Source of the DNA: Dethiobacter alkaliphilus
GTDB taxonomy: Bacteria > Bacillota > Dethiobacteria > DTU022 > UBA8154
Assembly: GCA_016841605.1 (NCBI GenBank)
Contig: JAENYV010000012.1
Location: forward strand, 55,103 to 118,943
DNA: 63,841 nt
Direction of reading: 5' to 3'
Position numbers and translations under genes: made by a program. Positions within the stretch are counted from its first letter, which is position 1, and each line of letters opens with the position of its first letter. Below, one piece after another: positions 924 through 61,655 of the stretch. A model generated the notes under the pieces. It saw only the letters and a list, made by a program, of their open reading frames with translations, had not been told where the DNA came from and did no database searches.

Positions 924-2322
924 AGCTAGCACCTCCCTCCAGCTTTTTCGTTCCGTAATGCACCAGCGCAGCGGCAGCCACCGCGGTTTTCTCCGGCGCG
1001 GTGAAGAGCGGTATGCCGGCACTCTGCAGAAAATCCCGGTCTGCACGACATCCCAACCAATTCCCGATAAAATTAACAATTAAAGGTTTTTTGTATTTTT
1101 TATAAGCGTCAAGCAGCTCTGCGGCGGGAAGCTCCCAGGTTTCGTGCAGACAATACACTGCCAGAAGAAGATCCACATGGTCATCGGCCAGCATCGCCTC
1201 CGCCAGACCGCCATAGGTAGGCCGGCTGAAACCCAGGCCGGCTGCATCCAGGGGGTTCTTCAGCACAACCGGCGGATTATCGGCCCCGATAATCCCCTTT
1301 ACCCGGGCGATAGTCTCTTCATGCAGCGGCGGAATAATACAGCCGGCCTGCGCCAGATGGTCGATCATGACGACTCCCGGCCCGGCTGTGTGCGTAAGAA
1401 TGCCCACTCGGTTTCCTCCCGGCAGGGGCAGGAGCTCCAGAGCCTTGCAGGCAGCTACCAACTCGGAAGGGCTGTTTACTGTGAAAATACCGTGCTGGTG
1501 CAAAATATCCCTATATAGTTTAAACGATCCCGCTGAGCTTCCCGTATGGGTTTGCGTATAGTTGTCTGCCCCCTCTATCCGTCCTGCCTTATAGACCACC
1601 ACCGGCTTCTTGCGGGCCACCCGACCGGCGGTGCGGACAAACCGGCCGGCATCCCGTGTGCCTTCCATATACACGCCGATCACAGCCGTTGAATCATCGT
1701 TTTCCAAATAATCGAGACAATCGGCAAAATCCAGGTTGGAACAATTCCCCACTCCGATAAATTTGTTTATCCCTATCCCTTCGTCGAGAGCCAGGTTAAT
1801 AATTGTTAATCCGACACCACCGCTCTGAGAAACAACGGATACTTTGCCCGCCGGTATTCTCATGGGATAAAAAGTGCTGTAAAAATTAGCGTCGTTATTG
1901 ATTATCCCCAGAGTATTAGGGCCGATAATCGGTAGACCGTATTTTTCCGCCGCGGCGATCAAGCGCTTTTCGAGCTCATCTCCATCCTCCCCTGTCTCAC
2001 TGTATCCACCGGCATTGCAGACGACCCCTTTCACTCCGGAGCAACCACAGCTCTCCACGGCCTCCACCGTCGCGTACTGATTCAGGCAGATCACCGCCAT
2101 ATCAACCGGCTCCGGGAGATCATCCAAACTTTTATAAACCTTGCACCCGAGCACTTGCTCATGGCGGGGATGCACCGGATAAACTTTTCCGGCAAATCCC
2201 CCGTACAGAATGCTTCTCAAAATATTATAACCTACCCGCTCAGGGGTATCGGTAATACCGATGACAGCCACCCGCTCAGGGTAAAAAACAGAGTGCAGGC
2301 CCTCCGGGCTTATTTGAGTCAC
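916..2322 (-). CDS. ADP-forming acyl-CoA synthetase, alpha (CoA-binding) subunit
   Basis: 468 residues, matching the roughly 460-residue alpha subunit of this family. An N-terminal Rossmann CoA-binding domain (about 1-140) is followed by succinyl-CoA-ligase-like flavodoxin domains. VVSQSGGVG is the ligase motif, and THTGSSAGS contains His259, the expected phosphohistidine that exchanges phosphate with the beta subunit. The start is GTG behind GAGGAG. It is first of a two-gene operon, and the beta gene overlaps its 3' end. It probably makes ATP at the end of an acid-forming catabolic pathway. Confidence 0.9.
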   Translation of the reverse strand: MTQISPEGLHSVFYPERVAVIGITDTPERVGYNILRSILYGGFAGKVYPVHPRHEQVLGCKVYKSLDDLPEPVDMAVICLNQYATVEAVESCGCSGVKGVVCNAGGYSETGEDGDELEKRLIAAAEKYGLPIIGPNTLGIINNDANFYSTFYPMRIPAGKVSVVSQSGGVGLTIINLALDEGIGINKFIGVGNCSNLDFADCLDYLENDDSTAVIGVYMEGTRDAGRFVRTAGRVARKKPVVVYKAGRIEGADNYTQTHTGSSAGSFKLYRDILHQHGIFTVNSPSELVAACKALELLPLPGGNRVGILTHTAGPGVVMIDHLAQAGCIIPPLHEETIARVKGIIGADNPPVVLKNPLDAAGLGFSRPTYGGLAEAMLADDHVDLLLAVYCLHETWELPAAELLDAYKKYKKPLIVNFIGNWLGCRADRDFLQSAGIPLFTAPEKTAVAAAALVHYGTKKLEGGASYA

Positions 2323-12830: not shown

Positions 12831-14298
12831 AGGTTCCTATCCCTCCACAAATTCTTATTTGAGTGTGTCCCGACTTTAGTCATAGGTATAGTGTCCGCTT
12901 TTTCACCGAAGGATCGAATTAAGCGAGCCGAATTAATAACTACCGCTACTGAGCCGATGTTATGAGTAATTGCACCCAAGATGGGGGTCAGCACTCCTAA
13001 ACCGGATAAAAGCAATGCTAAGGCGTTAAAAAGTAACGCGAAGGCAATATTTACGTTAATTGTTTTTACCGTTAGCTTCGCCAACTTAAGCAGATAAGGC
13101 AACTTAGACAAATCATCTTTCATTAAAGCAATGTCTGATGCCTCAAGTGTCACATCGGTTCCCAAAGCTCCCATGGCAATACCCACATTAGCCTAGCTAA
13201 AGACGGCGCATCATTTATACCATCACCAATTAAAGCAACCTTGTGCCCGGTATTTTGTAATTCTTGAATATGCCTCAGTTTATCTTCCGGAAAAAGCTCT
13301 GCATAAAATTCCTTAATATCGCAAAGCTTGGCAACATGGGCTGCAACTGCAGTATCATCACCGGTTAACATTTGAATTTTAGTAATACCATAGTCCTCAA
13401 GCGATCTAATAAGGTCAGTCACCTCTGGGCGTATTTCATCTCTTATTAAAATCTCTCCAATTTCTACGTAGTCTTCTTTCACAACTACAGCTTTGATACC
13501 GGGACCGGTCTCATTTTCTAGCCCATTTACTTTGGAGGTTAAAGTGCCGATAAATATTTTTTTATCATTGATAAAAGCCTCAACACCAAGACCAGGAATT
13601 CTTTTATAATTTTCAGGCTCGACAATCGAAAGTGTCTTCTTTTCTGCAGCTTCTAAAATTGCACGGGCCAGCGGATGCTCAGAATATTTTTCTGCTGAAG
13701 CTGCCAAGGAAAGTATCTTATCTGCAGCAGCGTCGGTAAAAGCCTTAACTTCCGTAACTACAGGCTTACCGGCAGTAAGTGTCCCGGTTTTATCAAAAAC
13801 GATGGTATCAATTTTTGATACCTCCTCTAGGAAAGCACCGCCTTTTATCAAAATACCATTACGGGAGGCATTTCCTAATGCAGACACTATAGCTGTTGGA
13901 GCCGAAAGAATGAATGCACACGGGCATCCAACAATTAGAACTGTAATGGCGCGGTGCAAATCCCTGGTAATAAGATACACCAAGATACTAAGAGCTACAA
14001 TGACCGGCGTGAAATATTTTGCATAACGGTCTGTATATCTTAAGATTGGCGCTTTTTGATTTTCCGCATTTTGAACAAGTTTAATCAGTTTTCCTAGTGC
14101 TGTTTCAGCCCCTACTTTTTGAGTTTCTACAACAATCATCCCGGAATAGCATACTGTTCCCGCATAAACAGTATCTCCTGTTTGTTTCTCCACAGGTAAA
14201 GATTCTCCGGTAAGGGACGCCTGGTTAAGGGATGCGTTACCCCTTACTAAAATATTAAGTAATTGTTCAGCCTCATCCTTGGAAAGGGAAGAGAGCAT
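12827..14298 (-). pseudogene. Truncated, frameshifted P1B-type heavy-metal ATPase
   Basis: Two frames, 13150-14298 and 12827-13186, together encode the C-terminal two thirds of a Cd/Zn/Co-type P1B ATPase: actuator motif LTGESLPVEK, CPC metal motif GCPCAFI, phosphorylation site DKTGT, hinge GDGINDAPS, then the last membrane helices. A one-base loss near 13192 (AGGCTAA where AGGGCTAA would keep frame) splits the hinge region. The N-terminal metal-binding domain and first helices are missing. The frame instead starts with about 20 residues (LTEQMLSSLSKDEAEQ) that look like the last helix of a MarR regulator. No active pump is expected. Confidence 0.88.
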
Positions 14299-22931: not shown

Positions 22932-23330
22932 GGCTTTAGCCTCCCGGCAAATGTCTTGTCCTCTTAAAAATAACAGATAACAACTTCTCCATGTTTCTTA
23001 GTTTCAACATAGCTAAGGGATAATATTAGACAAATAATGAGCTTTTTCCTGCGATCTAAGGCCGCCTTTCTAATAAATGCTATTTTTTCATGTTCTGATA
23101 AAAAGGGCGGCACCGTTCTAATTATCTGATAAAAGACAACAACTCCGATTGACCGCAGGCAGGATCCTATCTTCAAAATATAACAGATTTAGGCTTTCAT
23201 GCCTACCCCACTTTTATTCATTTTTTTTTCAAGCCGGTTGAAATTATGAAAGGTAAAGCCGGCTTTTACAGCCGGCATTTAAAGAAAAGCTCTATACACT
23301 AATTTCCTCTACGAAAGTCCGAAAGGTTAA
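22932..23330. other. Gene-free spacer
   Basis: About 400 bp between trkA and the beta-repeat protein genes, both on the minus strand. It contains the terminator of the latter (23258-23276). The rest should hold the trkA promoter; I see no clear gene or strong motif. Confidence 0.45.
23258..23276 (-). terminator. Likely intrinsic terminator of the beta-repeat operon
   Basis: Read on the minus strand, GCCGGC-7 nt loop-GCCGGC is followed by TTTACCTTTC, about 55 bp after the stop at 23331. The stem is short but all G/C. A further CCGG pair lies just downstream. Confidence 0.5.
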
Positions 23331-24194
23331 TTAGTCGGCAAAAAGTGCCTGGCCTGGTGTGAGAAGGATAACTAAATTTGTCGTTCCAGTGTCGATTTCC
23401 CGGCGATTGACCACAAAGGAAGGCGTGAGCAAGGGAAGCACTGTGAGCGGTGGAGCGGCAAAGGGTACCTCTACAATAACCTCAACTGCTGAACCATCCA
23501 CCCCTTCGATCCGCAACTCTTCAGCCTGGCCCGCGGGAACGATAACCGATCGGTTCAAAACTTGCCGTTTTTTTGTTGTGCCCCTGTTCAGGCTGTTCAC
23601 GGTAATGACCGCTTCTTCTTCCTCATTGGAAAGGCTGCTTAACCATAAGCTTACTTCTGTCTGCACGCCTTCTTCCACGGCGGGGATATCCACAAGCCCC
23701 CAGGTTAACGGATAGAGATTGGAAGGTACATCTTGCAACCTGTTTTGCTGCCGTTGCGAGGCGGCCATTTGAACCTCATTTTCTCTTACATACCCGAAAT
23801 CACCCACTGTAACAATAGCCAGGGGGAGAGCCGGCCCGTTATTACCTCCCTGAAGAAGATTTAATGACGGCTGCAGCTGGAAGCTACCGGGCGGCTCGAT
23901 CAGGGGCAGTTCCACGACTGCTTCGACTATATTGCCCGCAAGACCCAGGGCAGCCGGATCGAATTCAAAGGTAAACGCTCCTTCCCCGGGAACAGCGGTA
24001 CTCCCGGAGACCAAAGGAATTTTAACTGTATCCGTAAAACGGTTTAATTGAAAGGAGAAGCTTTCCGCCTGTTGCGACAGGTTGCTGATATACAATCGCA
24101 AGCTCAACGAGTCGGAAACACGGGGGATCAGCAGACCACCGCTGGTAAATGTTTCAATATATTGGCTGTTATCCATGCTGTTGACTTCCGTCAT
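23331..24194 (-). CDS. Two-repeat beta-sandwich-like protein, paralogue B
   Basis: 287 residues from the ATG at 24194, which has a seven-G SD and lies 1 bp after the stop of the upstream gene. The longer open frame to 24350 overlaps that gene and is not used. The protein has no signal peptide or membrane helix and contains two similar halves (about 20-130 and 160-287). Each half is Val/Leu/Pro-rich with alternating beta strands, a turn such as EGVDGSAVEV and an ending of the form LLTPGQ. The second half carries VNSLNRGTTKKRQVL, almost the same as in the upstream paralogue. I recognise no named family. Confidence 0.75.
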   Translation of the reverse strand: MTEVNSMDNSQYIETFTSGGLLIPRVSDSLSLRLYISNLSQQAESFSFQLNRFTDTVKIPLVSGSTAVPGEGAFTFEFDPAALGLAGNIVEAVVELPLIEPPGSFQLQPSLNLLQGGNNGPALPLAIVTVGDFGYVRENEVQMAASQRQQNRLQDVPSNLYPLTWGLVDIPAVEEGVQTEVSLWLSSLSNEEEEAVITVNSLNRGTTKKRQVLNRSVIVPAGQAEELRIEGVDGSAVEVIVEVPFAAPPLTVLPLLTPSFVVNRREIDTGTTNLVILLTPGQALFAD

Positions 24195-24195
24195 T

Positions 24196-25239
24196 TTACA
24201 GCCCCCCCTTTTTAACGTTCCTTTGAATAGAGCGGCTGCGACCAGTAGAGGCCAAATGCAGTGCTGCCGTATCTTCAGTAAAAATGCCCATAAATTTTCC
24301 CGGCGGTAGAAACATGACCAAATCAACCGACTCGGCCACCATGAAAACATTTGTTACATTAACAGCAGGTTGAAGTATTCTTCCCTGCACGGTACGCGAC
24401 AGTGTCAAATTAATTTCTATGGGCAACCCTTCTACATTATTGATTACCAGCTGCCTTGCTTCCATGGGAGGAACGGCAACGGTTTCGGACAATACCTGCT
24501 CTTTTGAGGTAGTGCCCCGGACCAGTGTATTCACTACCACATCCGCAGTCAAAGTTTCGTCAAAAAAACTACTCAGCACCAGCTCTACCTGAGGCCTTAC
24601 GGCAAAAACTCCCTGGGGCACTTCCAAAACTCCCGTGGTTAAAAGAATGGGAGGAAGAGGTTCTTCCAGGGAGGAATTTTCCTGCTGCAGGGATGAGATG
24701 CTGTTATCGTTATGAAATGGTAATACTTGCTGAAAACCGGAGGGCGGTAGAAAGAGAAGGGGCAGAGTAGCCCCGTCGGCAGGAAATGTTTCTACAATAT
24801 TCACTGAAGGAAATAGCTGGAAGATATTTATATATTCCGCCGACCGGAGCAGCACTTCCACTGTCTTTCCCATCAATCCCAGTGCTCCCACATCAAACCT
24901 AATCTGTACAGCCCCCTGGGCAGGCACTATCACCGCGGTCTGGACAATCATATTTTTGCCGGATTCGGTAACCGCATTGACCTGAAGTTGTACCGTTTCC
25001 GCCGCGTTGATCAAGCTGCTGACATAAAGAAACATGGTTAAAGGCAGATCTACGCTTGGAACCGTAAACAGGCCGCTTAACTGCCAATTATTAAATTCTC
25101 CCACCTGGAACTTCTTTAGCGTCAGGTCGGTGTCCTCCGCCTGCTGTGAGGACCGTGATAAATCCCGGCTATTATCCGCGATAAAGGCTTTCGCATTGAT
25201 TAAACTGTCCTTTTCGCGGTCCGGGGTCAAATCGGACAT
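24196..25239 (-). CDS. Two-repeat beta-sandwich-like protein, paralogue A
   Basis: 347 residues with a charged, Gln/Ser-rich head (1-45), then two related halves ending FLPPSGF and FLPPGKF. The second half has VNTLVRGTTSKEQVL followed by VAVPPMEARQLVI, matching paralogue B. The last Gly codons double as the SD of the downstream gene. No signal peptide, so a cytoplasmic or forespore-surface location is likely. The promoter resembles a sigma-K site, which hints at late mother-cell expression and a spore-layer role (inference). Function unknown. Confidence 0.75.
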   Translation of the reverse strand: MSDLTPDREKDSLINAKAFIADNSRDLSRSSQQAEDTDLTLKKFQVGEFNNWQLSGLFTVPSVDLPLTMFLYVSSLINAAETVQLQVNAVTESGKNMIVQTAVIVPAQGAVQIRFDVGALGLMGKTVEVLLRSAEYINIFQLFPSVNIVETFPADGATLPLLFLPPSGFQQVLPFHNDNSISSLQQENSSLEEPLPPILLTTGVLEVPQGVFAVRPQVELVLSSFFDETLTADVVVNTLVRGTTSKEQVLSETVAVPPMEARQLVINNVEGLPIEINLTLSRTVQGRILQPAVNVTNVFMVAESVDLVMFLPPGKFMGIFTEDTAALHLASTGRSRSIQRNVKKGGL

Positions 25240-25267
25240 AAAGATTCCCCCTTGTATACGTATAAAC

Positions 25268-25296
25268 TAGAATATGCATCTTTCAAGGGAGAGTGT
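25268..25296 (-). promoter_or_regulatory. Sigma-K-like promoter
   Basis: On the minus strand ACAC (25296-25293) is followed after 16 bp by CATATTCTA (25276-25268). This fits the sigma-K consensus AC-N16-CATANNNTA. Transcription would start near 25262, about 22 nt before the ATG and just ahead of the SD AAGGGGG. Sigma-E promoters look similar. Confidence 0.45.
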
Positions 25297-26953: not shown

Positions 26954-29194
26954 ATGAAGCTGTTGAAAAAGAGGATCTTTTGGGGGCTGTTGGCAGGAAT
27001 CATCGGGGGTATTGCCGGGACAATGATTTTATGGGGCTCGTGGCTGCTCCCCTCTCTCGGCTTATTGCTGACGAGAGCCGACATTATTAATGGTGCCTCG
27101 GCCCTGCTCGTTTTCGGGGCAATAGGAGGTATTGTCTATGCTCTGCTGCTGGGAGAAAGAAAGCTAAGACTGGGCAATACAATTATCGCGGGTTTGGTTT
27201 TGGGCTTCCTCTTGTGGTTTCTGGGTGTGCTGATTATTGTTCCCGTCATCCTTGGTTTTCCTCCCCAGCTCAGAAATCCCCTCGATCACTGGACACCCCT
27301 GGCGGCTTTTAGCTTATACGGCATAATTGTTGCACTGTTGTACAGCAGGTGGGCCCTCAAGCAGCCGGTGACCAGAAGTTATATCGCTCTCGGCCTGGTC
27401 GTCGTATCGTTTTTTTTAACGCCCATAATGCTCCGTGCCGCCGTCAGCACCGAACCGGAAGATTTGCAAGTTCCGCAGGGCTACCGGGCGGAAGTTGTGG
27501 CTAAGGGGTTTACTTTCCCCACAACACTTCTCCTTGATGAAAATGAAAACATTTATATCGCTGAAGCCGGTTACGCTTACGGGCCGAAAACAACCGTCGC
27601 CAAAATAATAAAGGTTGGCAAAAACGGGGGTATAGAGGAGATCGCCAGAAATTTTAAAGGGCCGATTAATGGTCTGGCCATGAAAGAAAACAAACTTTAT
27701 GTTTCCCACCGGGGAAAAATTACGGAGTTTGATCTGGAAAGCAAGGAGAGAAAAGATCTGGTCGAGGGTTTGCCTTCCCTTGGGGATCACCAAAATAACG
27801 ATTTAATCTTCGGGGAAGACGGAGCCCTTTATTTCGGCCAGGGAACAGCTACCAATGCGGGGATAGTCGGCTCAGACAATTTCCTTTACGCCTGGGCGGA
27901 CAGGTTCCCCGATTTTCATGATATTCCCTCCCGCAATTTTGTCTTAACAGGTGAAAATTATGAGGCGTTGGATTTAGGTACTCCCGACCCGGCCGATACA
28001 AGGACAACCGGGGCCTTTGCCCCCTTCGGCCAGGAGAGGGAAGCAGGCGAAGAGGTAGAGAAAAAAGTCCCTGCCGGGGGAACGATCCACCGCTTTGACC
28101 TGGAGACGGAAACACTCTCTATCTATGCCGATGGCCTGCGCAATCCCTTTGGCCTTGCCTGGGGACATAACGGCGCTCTCTACGCCACAAATTTAGGGTA
28201 CGACGACCGGGGAGAAAGAGCTGTCAAAGGTTCACCGGACTGGGTGGTTAAAATTGAAGAAGGAGCCTGGTACGGCTGGCCGGATTATGCCGGTGAGTTG
28301 CCGTTAACCGATGAGCGCTTTGCTTCTGAAAGGGGAGTTAATCTCAATCCCCTGCTTGAAAATCCTCCTGATGTAACGCCTCCTCTGGCTGAGCTGCCGT
28401 CGCATTATTCACCCATGAAATTGGACTTCGCCCCAAAAGGGTTTAATGATCAAGGTTTATTCGTCGCTATCTTTGGAGATGCCCAGCCCCTGACGGAAGA
28501 TCTGGAAGAACAGGTACCTACCGGTGTAATCATCGTCGACCCGGAAAGCGGCGAGTACGAATGGTTTATCAAAAACAAGGAAAAAGCCCGGGGAGGCCGC
28601 TGGGGAGACGGTTTTAAAAGGGTCATTGATGTTAAGTTCAACCGGGAAGGCAATTCCATGTATGTGCTCGATTTCGGCGTCATGGAATTTACCGACTTCT
28701 CCCCCAATGCGATCCCCCGGTCAGGAGTGCTGTGGAAAATTGAATTGGACCGCAGCAACGGTGGAGGGGCAGGGGGAACGGGAGAGCAGCAGCAAACGCC
28801 TGTCGAGCCAAAAACGCAAGAGAAAAACGAGAAGAACAAAGGAGTTCAGGAAGAAAAACCCAAAATAACAGATACCAAAGAAAAAGAAAATGAGCCCGGC
28901 AAGGTTAACGAAAAACCTGAGCAAAATAAACCCACGGAACCGGAACCTGAGGAGCCTGAATTAAAACCCGAAAAGCCTGGTACACCTGAACCCGCGGTAC
29001 CTGAGGAGCCCGTTACTCCAGAGCCTGAAGAGCCCCAGGAACCTGAGGAACCCGGCAATGGTCAGCCCGGAGAAGCTGAACCCGGGATACCGGGAGATGG
29101 GGAATCCATGGTACCTGAAGCGCCCATTGTCCCCGAGCCTCTGGTTCCTGTCGAACCTGAAGAACCTGAAATAGGAGAATCCGGTAATGGTTGA
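26954..29194 (+). CDS. Membrane-anchored sorbosone/glucose-dehydrogenase-like beta-propeller with Pro/Glu tail
   Basis: Up to 746 residues in three parts. Residues 1-165 hold about five membrane helices. Residues 170-595 form a propeller of the PQQ glucose/sorbosone dehydrogenase type (LQVPQGYRAEVVAKG, DGLRNPFGLAWG, YGWPDYAG). Residues 603-746 are a low-complexity tail built from PEEPE and related units, like a cell-wall spanner. Whether it binds PQQ or is an enzyme is unclear. The SD (AGGAG) touches the ATG at 26954, so translation may begin at the CTG or TTG codons 6-9 bases later. The propeller should face outward. Confidence 0.8.
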   Translation: MKLLKKRIFWGLLAGIIGGIAGTMILWGSWLLPSLGLLLTRADIINGASALLVFGAIGGIVYALLLGERKLRLGNTIIAGLVLGFLLWFLGVLIIVPVILGFPPQLRNPLDHWTPLAAFSLYGIIVALLYSRWALKQPVTRSYIALGLVVVSFFLTPIMLRAAVSTEPEDLQVPQGYRAEVVAKGFTFPTTLLLDENENIYIAEAGYAYGPKTTVAKIIKVGKNGGIEEIARNFKGPINGLAMKENKLYVSHRGKITEFDLESKERKDLVEGLPSLGDHQNNDLIFGEDGALYFGQGTATNAGIVGSDNFLYAWADRFPDFHDIPSRNFVLTGENYEALDLGTPDPADTRTTGAFAPFGQEREAGEEVEKKVPAGGTIHRFDLETETLSIYADGLRNPFGLAWGHNGALYATNLGYDDRGERAVKGSPDWVVKIEEGAWYGWPDYAGELPLTDERFASERGVNLNPLLENPPDVTPPLAELPSHYSPMKLDFAPKGFNDQGLFVAIFGDAQPLTEDLEEQVPTGVIIVDPESGEYEWFIKNKEKARGGRWGDGFKRVIDVKFNREGNSMYVLDFGVMEFTDFSPNAIPRSGVLWKIELDRSNGGGAGGTGEQQQTPVEPKTQEKNEKNKGVQEEKPKITDTKEKENEPGKVNEKPEQNKPTEPEPEEPELKPEKPGTPEPAVPEEPVTPEPEEPQEPEEPGNGQPGEAEPGIPGDGESMVPEAPIVPEPLVPVEPEEPEIGESGNG

Positions 29195-60610: not shown

Positions 60611-61126
60611 CTATCTGTAGAGGGGCGGTTCGATTACATACCCTTTTAATTTTCCGTATTCTAAATATTTATCATAAAGCTTCATCTCGTCATACAGGAA
60701 TGTTAAAAACAGCTCTCTTATCTTGGGCGAAGTGCTGTGAATAAAAGCCATTATATGAGTAGGTAGAAATTCCTGAATTCCTCTGAGTATTCGCCTAAAA
60801 ATATGTCTGTCTGAAACATGCTCTATATTTTCCGTAATTGTTGCTTGTTTTGGCGGCCTGAGAGGTAGAGGTATCCCATATTCCATCATTTCTTTTTCCA
60901 ATATCTTAATATTTTTATTAAGGACCTTCCTTCCAATTTTAAGAACCGCCTTTAAATCATCATCCCTCACAAACGATTGCAAAGTATCTGTGACGAGTAT
61001 GACATCATACCTCGAAATTAAATGATTCCAGAGATGATAGACCTCACTAACAGTAATACTTTGCTGTTTTTCCCTGGTTGACATGCATAATTCTTTTATC
61101 TTTTGCATTTTTTGTAAAAGCCTCAT
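60611..61126 (-). CDS. DUF3231-like protein
   Basis: 171 residues, all helical, with two related helical-hairpin segments. Pro-rich linkers (GIPLPLRPPKQ) and the ending EPPLYR resemble DUF3231 proteins of spore formers, which have a ferritin-like fold and unclear function. GGGAGGG lies 4 bp before the first ATG; later Met7 and Met15 are alternatives. Its upstream neighbour is a paralogue 14 bp away. Confidence 0.7.
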   Translation of the reverse strand: MRLLQKMQKIKELCMSTREKQQSITVSEVYHLWNHLISRYDVILVTDTLQSFVRDDDLKAVLKIGRKVLNKNIKILEKEMMEYGIPLPLRPPKQATITENIEHVSDRHIFRRILRGIQEFLPTHIMAFIHSTSPKIRELFLTFLYDEMKLYDKYLEYGKLKGYVIEPPLYR

Positions 61127-61140
61127 GATACCCTCCCAGA

Positions 61141-61655
61141 TTATGCTCTGTAAATAGGCGGAGCATACAATAAACCTTTTAACTTACCGTACTCAACAAT
61201 TAACTCCTGTAATTCCATACTACGAAGCAAGTGGTCTTTGAATACTTTCCTTACTTGCGGTGTTGTACTGCTCATAAAGGCCTGGGATAGAAGAGGAAAA
61301 AATGTATGTATTCCTTCTAATAAACTTTCATATATATACTTGTCTGTAAAATGTTCCAAACTCCCTGTCGTCTTGCTGCCGGCCGGCGGTCTCATCGGAA
61401 AAGGTATACCGTAATCTTTCATTATTTTTTCCATCGCGGAGATACCTACTTCGAGACCCTTTACCATCTGACCGGAGATAAATCTTAAATCTTTATCTTT
61501 AATAAAATTATCGAGAATTCTAAAGGTATGCAATATATCATTCTTGGCCACCATAATATCCCACACATAGAAGACTTCACCGACATTTATACTTTTCTGT
61601 TTTTCCCTGGTTGTTTTACCTGCGTCGGTTATTTTATAATGGATAAAGAATTTCA
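61141..61655 (-). pseudogene. DUF3231-like paralogue without its start
   Basis: From the first ATG (61566) 141 residues are encoded, but the frame upstream keeps matching its paralogue (TTREKQKSINVGEVFYVWD versus STREKQQSITVSEVYHLWN) to about 61655 and then runs into a stop with no ATG, GTG or TTG in frame. The break lies next to the IS3-type element, whose insertion probably removed the 5' end. The C-terminal part, with PFPMRPP and APPIYR, is intact. Confidence 0.7.

Follow-up and report, generated by a model that had tools for sequence, protein, structure and literature searches.

Two adjacent genes in the 63,841-nucleotide window (i.e. the whole stretch of DNA that was analysed), designated here as A and B, were found to encode paralogous proteins of an unnamed family that is new and adopts an already known fold. 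On balance, A and B appear to form a two-subunit spore-surface pair, of which A is the tailed member, and to be produced by the mother cell at a late stage. Little is known about spore-surface proteins other than those of Bacillus and some Clostridium species, and they are seldom detected by sequence searching; the nameless family described here occurs in spore formers that are mostly uncultured, and combines a confidently modelled fold with a build-up that can be traced from one unit to four and a late-sporulation promoter type. If the pair is located on the spore, a fold known from metabolite-sensing proteins would have been reused as a structural block. The features of the locus are listed in Table 1.

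Table 1. Position and basis of assignment of the features of the A-B locus (coordinates are those of the window)
Feature	Position	Strand	Basis or remark
Gene A	24196-25239	-	ORF, ATG start, 347 aa
Gene B	23331-24194	-	ORF, ATG start, 287 aa
A unit 1	24718..25092	-	Unit alignment; grouped with B unit 1 in tree
A unit 2	24274..24654	-	Unit alignment; VPQGVxAxxP stretch common with unit 2 of ZC4RG18 and G580
B unit 1	23778..24158	-	Unit alignment; model strands 12-136
B unit 2	23334..23720	-	Unit alignment; fold match 1nc7, Z 10.2 over 107 residues
Ribosome-binding site of A, AAGGGGGA	25246..25254	-	Sequence
Sigma-K-type promoter, AC-N16-CATATTCTA	25268..25294	-	Sequence; AC 25294-25293, -10 25276-25268
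Terminator-like hairpin GCCGGC..GCCGGC 3' of B, weak U tract	23258..23276	-	Scan

Gene A precedes gene B, from which it is separated by a single base (position 24195), and the ribosome-binding sites of both genes are G-rich, with that of B overlapping the 3' end of A. The deduced proteins exhibit 36% identity over 226 aa (E 4e-30), confirming the two adjacent paralogues with a 1-bp gap that the initial annotation had described. Protein A consists of an N-terminal flexible stretch, two β-sandwich units and a basic C-terminal tail; protein B is represented by two β-sandwich units, almost without extensions. Both proteins are acidic (pI 4.7 and 4.3 for A and B, respectively) and contain no cysteine. 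A hydrophobic N-terminus was looked for in A and B and was absent from both, in agreement with the earlier claim that neither carries a signal peptide, and no further copies of A or B were found in the genome from which the window derives. The pair had also been credited with a terminator of its own; a hairpin is indeed located 3' of B, but its U tract is poor, and the hairpin scan returned six terminator-like sites in the region compared with 3.1 expected.

Local alignment of the two halves within each protein resulted in z-scores of 7.2 (A1/A2) and 8.3 (B1/B2), and corresponding halves were closer across the two genes (z 22 for A1/B1 and 18 for A2/B2); direct pairwise alignment of A2 and B1 was not significant. 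All four units of the window fitted a single alignment of the 23 units collected from many genomes. It is thus confirmed that A and B are both built from two copies of one unit, giving four copies in total, as had been proposed. The unit is β-rich, as originally stated, but its actual length of ~125 aa slightly exceeds the ~110 residues first assigned to it. The motif VN-LxRGTT-K-xVL is common to the second halves of both proteins, where VN-LxRGTT-K-QVL had previously been pointed out. In the AlphaFold model of B (pLDDT 87.2, pTM 0.84), both units were predicted with confidence (209 of 287 residues at a pLDDT of at least 90) and were connected by a disordered linker (residues 140-156); the same strand order was observed in both halves.

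The model of a single-unit relative (pLDDT 95.8, pTM 0.87) comprised eight strands, and both models had the same top fold match, namely Thermotoga maritima TM1070 (1nc7, Z 10.2), a member of the ASRT (sensory-rhodopsin-transducer) family. In the single-unit model, 103 of the 116 aa were covered by this match (Foldseek TM 0.60). The Anabaena ASRT (2ii7) ranked lower, at Z 7.6 with 21% identity. The structure 1nc7 served as the reference in the description of ASRAH domains, which are tetrameric and proposed to bind sugars, and which in non-ASRT families occur as dyads or tetrads (PMC2739507), comparable to the arrangement of the A and B units in twos and fours. The predicted units also display the eight-stranded β-sandwich of ~120 aa that marks ASRAH, as judged from strand count and the 1nc7 match. 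These resemblances speak for a reading that we consider unlikely yet plausible, in which A and B constitute an intracellular ASRT-like sensor, i.e. a hetero-tetramer whose cleft would bind a sugar or small metabolite and which would act on a partner in sporulation, off the spore surface. The end of strand 2, where Asn is near-invariant in ASRAH, has Asn in 11 and Ser in 12 of the 23 units, an Asn-or-Ser pattern that was counted in favour of such a sensor. Conversely, the ASRT pocket signature SHEshChhN was absent from all 23 units, which have almost no Cys or His, and only ~6 of them have the conserved Trp where strand 1 begins. The PF07100 profile, which matched T. maritima among the control genomes, did not match any unit, and a profile-profile comparison with six ASRTs (hhalign, small alignment) was not significant (probability 0.65%, E 0.088). 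Sugar-metabolism neighbours were not seen around most loci, and the disordered or low-complexity extensions of the family better suit a structural protein. The A/B family further differs from ASRT in its sporulation-type promoter, tandem paralogues and tails. As the sequence profiles are unlinked, and the pocket signature and a conserved strand-1 Trp are missing, the family was not filed as a member of ASRAH; that A and B would operate like the ASRT tetramer is offered as a hypothesis, by analogy.

Searches of Pfam and NCBIfam (per protein and per unit), and of the PDB by sequence and by profile, did not return a significant match, and no Pfam family was matched by A or B up to E 5. The absence of a name in the initial annotation was thereby borne out; a resemblance to a known non-spore family, which was to count against the proposed spore role, was encountered with ASRT at the level of fold, but not of sequence. 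Carbohydrate-binding modules of Ruminococcus flavefaciens Cel5A (5fu2 and 5aos) were a close second in fold (Z 9.1-9.2 over 91-93 residues), so that fold alone is insufficient to establish kinship. Together with the origin of several carriers from compost or digesters (according to isolate names only), this match is compatible with a carbohydrate-binding adhesin pair that would decorate the spore or cell and bind plant or other polysaccharide without building a layer. We regard such a role as decidedly unlikely, as β-sandwich matches at this level are common, a conserved aromatic binding platform is absent and Trp residues are few, with none present in all units; the Cel5A module has a similar sandwich, but shares 10-11% identity with the units, and A and B are without an enzyme partner or signal peptide. 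The top Foldseek hit of the two-unit model (E 2.9e-6) was RbmA, the tandem Fn3 biofilm scaffold of Vibrio cholerae, which likewise has two β-sandwiches per chain; it was rejected because the whole chain showed no fold match (TM 0.24, rmsd ~19 Å), indicative of a tandem-sandwich effect.

A sigma-K-like promoter had been proposed for the pair, and an AC-N16-CATANNNTA site upstream of A was found to be an exact match. A single such site was counted across the window, compared with 1.3 expected in shuffles, and since it is as frequent as in shuffled DNA, the site proves little by itself. A strict motif (AC, 15-17 bases, CATANNNTA) was, however, also present upstream of gene A in G390, G447 and G448, as the sole copy on both strands of each 7-16-kb locus; as G447 and G448 belong to one genus, these represent two independent lineages besides the window. 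In G305, G391 and G040, AC-N17 sites whose -10 element deviates at one or two positions were recognized under a looser reading made after seeing the sequences, and the strict site was looked for and absent from G387 and from the lone two-unit genes of G539 and G580. The AC of the -35 element sets sigma-K apart from sigma-E, the -10 boxes of the two being very similar (PMC3789822), and in sigma-K promoters of Bacillus subtilis, a -35 element of five bases and a -10 element of ten bases are spaced 14-16 bases apart (PMC517825). The proposed promoter thus gained support from other genomes, but not from the window alone, and the recurrence of the motif supports a predicted late mother-cell expression of the pair from a sigma-K-type promoter.

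Sigma-K (TIGR02846) scored above the curated cut-off in all ten genomes tested and in none of the control genomes, and SpoIVA was present in every carrier tested, a set outside which G539 and G580 fall; no carrier within this set belonged to a non-sporulating lineage. As most non-carriers of the same classes also possess SpoIVA, its presence in carriers represents consistency rather than proof. The link to spore formers suggested earlier was thus upheld by the carriers, but is tempered by a very patchy distribution, with the pair being carried by 2 of the 98 genomes from the class to which the window belongs.

In total, 11 carriers in three classes were identified among ~700 genomes searched. 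Within the window's class, the only one with two adjacent two-unit genes, an orthologous tandem pair in the same order was found in G040, which belongs to another family of the same order (61-62% identity for A and B), and the pair was missing from the two remaining genomes of the window's genus and from 20 others of its family. The second class harboured tandem single-unit gene pairs in six genomes and a lone unit in a seventh, and the third class contained single two-unit genes in two genomes (G539 and G580), the tandem A-B order being represented by eight genomes from two classes. A unit-1 motif scan of 84,980 species genomes returned eight loci, all in metagenome-assembled genomes, and an evenly drawn sample of 398 genomes from the phylum contained only three carriers, none of them new. 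Matches in G210, G096 and G599 lay in apparent ABC-transporter, HypE/HypD and CcoG-like genes and were attributed to chance. The family is real but rare and very patchy, with visible losses, and is accessory, outside the conserved sporulation core.

Remnants of the family were observed in two genomes. In the closed genome of G093, a decayed 3' end of B is located between intact genes (L007, 1495-1707, minus strand): the pair was once present and was then lost. A decayed B-type first-unit fragment (LLGLAGQTVEAVVELPVIEP) was also found in G040 (C28; L052, about 1498-1600, plus strand), far from the intact pair, as a sign of copy turnover. Such patchy presence and remnants, together with a weak fold likeness to phage proteins and to the prophage protein XepA (Z 7.0, but rmsd 27), would be in keeping with a mobile or phage-derived cargo pair of fibre- or tail-like β domains without a role in sporulation. 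This origin is highly improbable, given that no phage genes were recognized beside the loci read, that PHROGs matches (per protein) were at chance level, and that gene order and promoter were retained across genera.

No conserved gene neighbourhood and no conserved metabolic neighbours were found across the loci. The G040 pair adjoins yqfC-yqfD, and a Coat_F gene is located downstream of the pair in G305. The record with the G040 pair (L041) is titled Desulfovibrio sp., yet the genome has yqfC-yqfD, SpoIVA and sigma-K, and the name looks wrong. The two-unit protein of G580 (L061, about 1036-2145, plus strand) differs from the other members in its C-terminus, where hydrophobic residues precede arginines (PATLALLAALVALSRRR) and may serve as a tail anchor.

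In the unit trees, first units grouped with first units and second units with second units, which also applied to the lone two-unit genes; the supports were not all high. A single clade of A1 and A2 was rejected in the larger data set (p-AU 0.004) and not in the smaller one (p 0.10). This grouping and the rejection of the A1-A2 clade indicate that a two-unit gene most likely predates its duplication into A and B, which would have occurred in the window's lineage. The observed arrangements form a series of adjacent single-unit genes (1+1), one two-unit gene and adjacent two-unit genes (2+2), in which the window pair likewise has the appearance of a two-unit gene that was duplicated. In the single-unit pairs, a tendency of gene A to group with unit 1 was weakly supported (64/76 and 46/80).

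The members of the tandem pairs are asymmetric, with the first gene carrying an N-terminal extension and the second encoding almost bare units. The extension amounts to ~50 aa in the window and ranges from a few tens to nearly 200 aa in the single-unit class, where some extensions have a basic start such as VSRIKKRLVLTR followed by long Thr/Ala/Glu-rich stretches. This asymmetry suggests that A may act as the tethering partner and B as the packing partner. Upstream of gene A in all six single-unit pairs (L034-L039), a conserved element, GATTCCTA (GACTCCTA in one), was observed 15-17 bases past a -10-like box and about 37-111 bases before the gene. It lies in the loop of a short hairpin in two or three loci, with differing stems, and only some of the six copies fold better than most shuffles; it may represent a 5' regulatory element.

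Building on the supported family, fold and promoter type, we infer a location, an assembly and a ligand as follows, the dedicated two-protein layer of the initial annotation being retained as a hypothesis. As they lack a signal peptide, A and B would be produced in the mother-cell cytoplasm and would gather on the forespore surface, where the flexible tails of A would tether it to the coat. The units of A and B would pair side by side like those of the TM1070/ASRT tetramer, with one A and one B supplying four units, and the product would be a component of the coat, crust or exosporium, possibly binding polysaccharide via one face of the sandwich. Arguing for a spore-surface pair are the promoter footprint in independent genera, the presence of sigma-K and SpoIVA, the confident sandwich models, the retained A-B order, the lack of a signal peptide-like start, of cysteine and of conserved metabolic neighbours, and the yqfC-yqfD and Coat_F neighbours in G040 and G305, respectively. 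Counted against it are the chance-level frequency of the promoter motif in the window alone, the lack of a strict site in G539, G580 and G387, the patchy presence and the hydrophobic end of the G580 protein, as well as the fact that cytoplasmic proteins are the best-known examples of the ASRT fold. A more specific version, which we put forward tentatively and as possible rather than probable, is a new ASRT-fold spore-surface assembly, in which A and B would form a disulfide-free pseudo-tetramer or lattice that is tethered by the tails of A and perhaps grips polysaccharide, and which different clades would build as 1+1, as a two-unit chain or as 2+2. In outline, such a system would resemble ENA (DUF3992) of the Bacillus cereus group, in which several late mother-cell β-sandwich paralogues occur, one of them as an anchor (PMC12921279). 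However, A and B do not match DUF3992 and lack Cys, whereas inter-chain disulfides hold the Ena1C ring together (PMC12921279). A literature search on β-sandwich spore-coat proteins and on Limnochordia coats yielded nothing specific.

Elsewhere in the window, two adjacent related small genes (60611-61566), one with a DUF3231 match and the other with a Coat_F match just under the cut-off, possibly represent a second tandem pair of spore-related proteins. A P-type metal ATPase ORF of 382 aa (13150-14298) begins within the E1-E2 domain and ends early, and looks truncated or broken. The protein encoded by the region 26954-29194 is membrane-anchored, resembles glucose/sorbosone dehydrogenases and has a long C-terminal tail rich in Pro and Glu.
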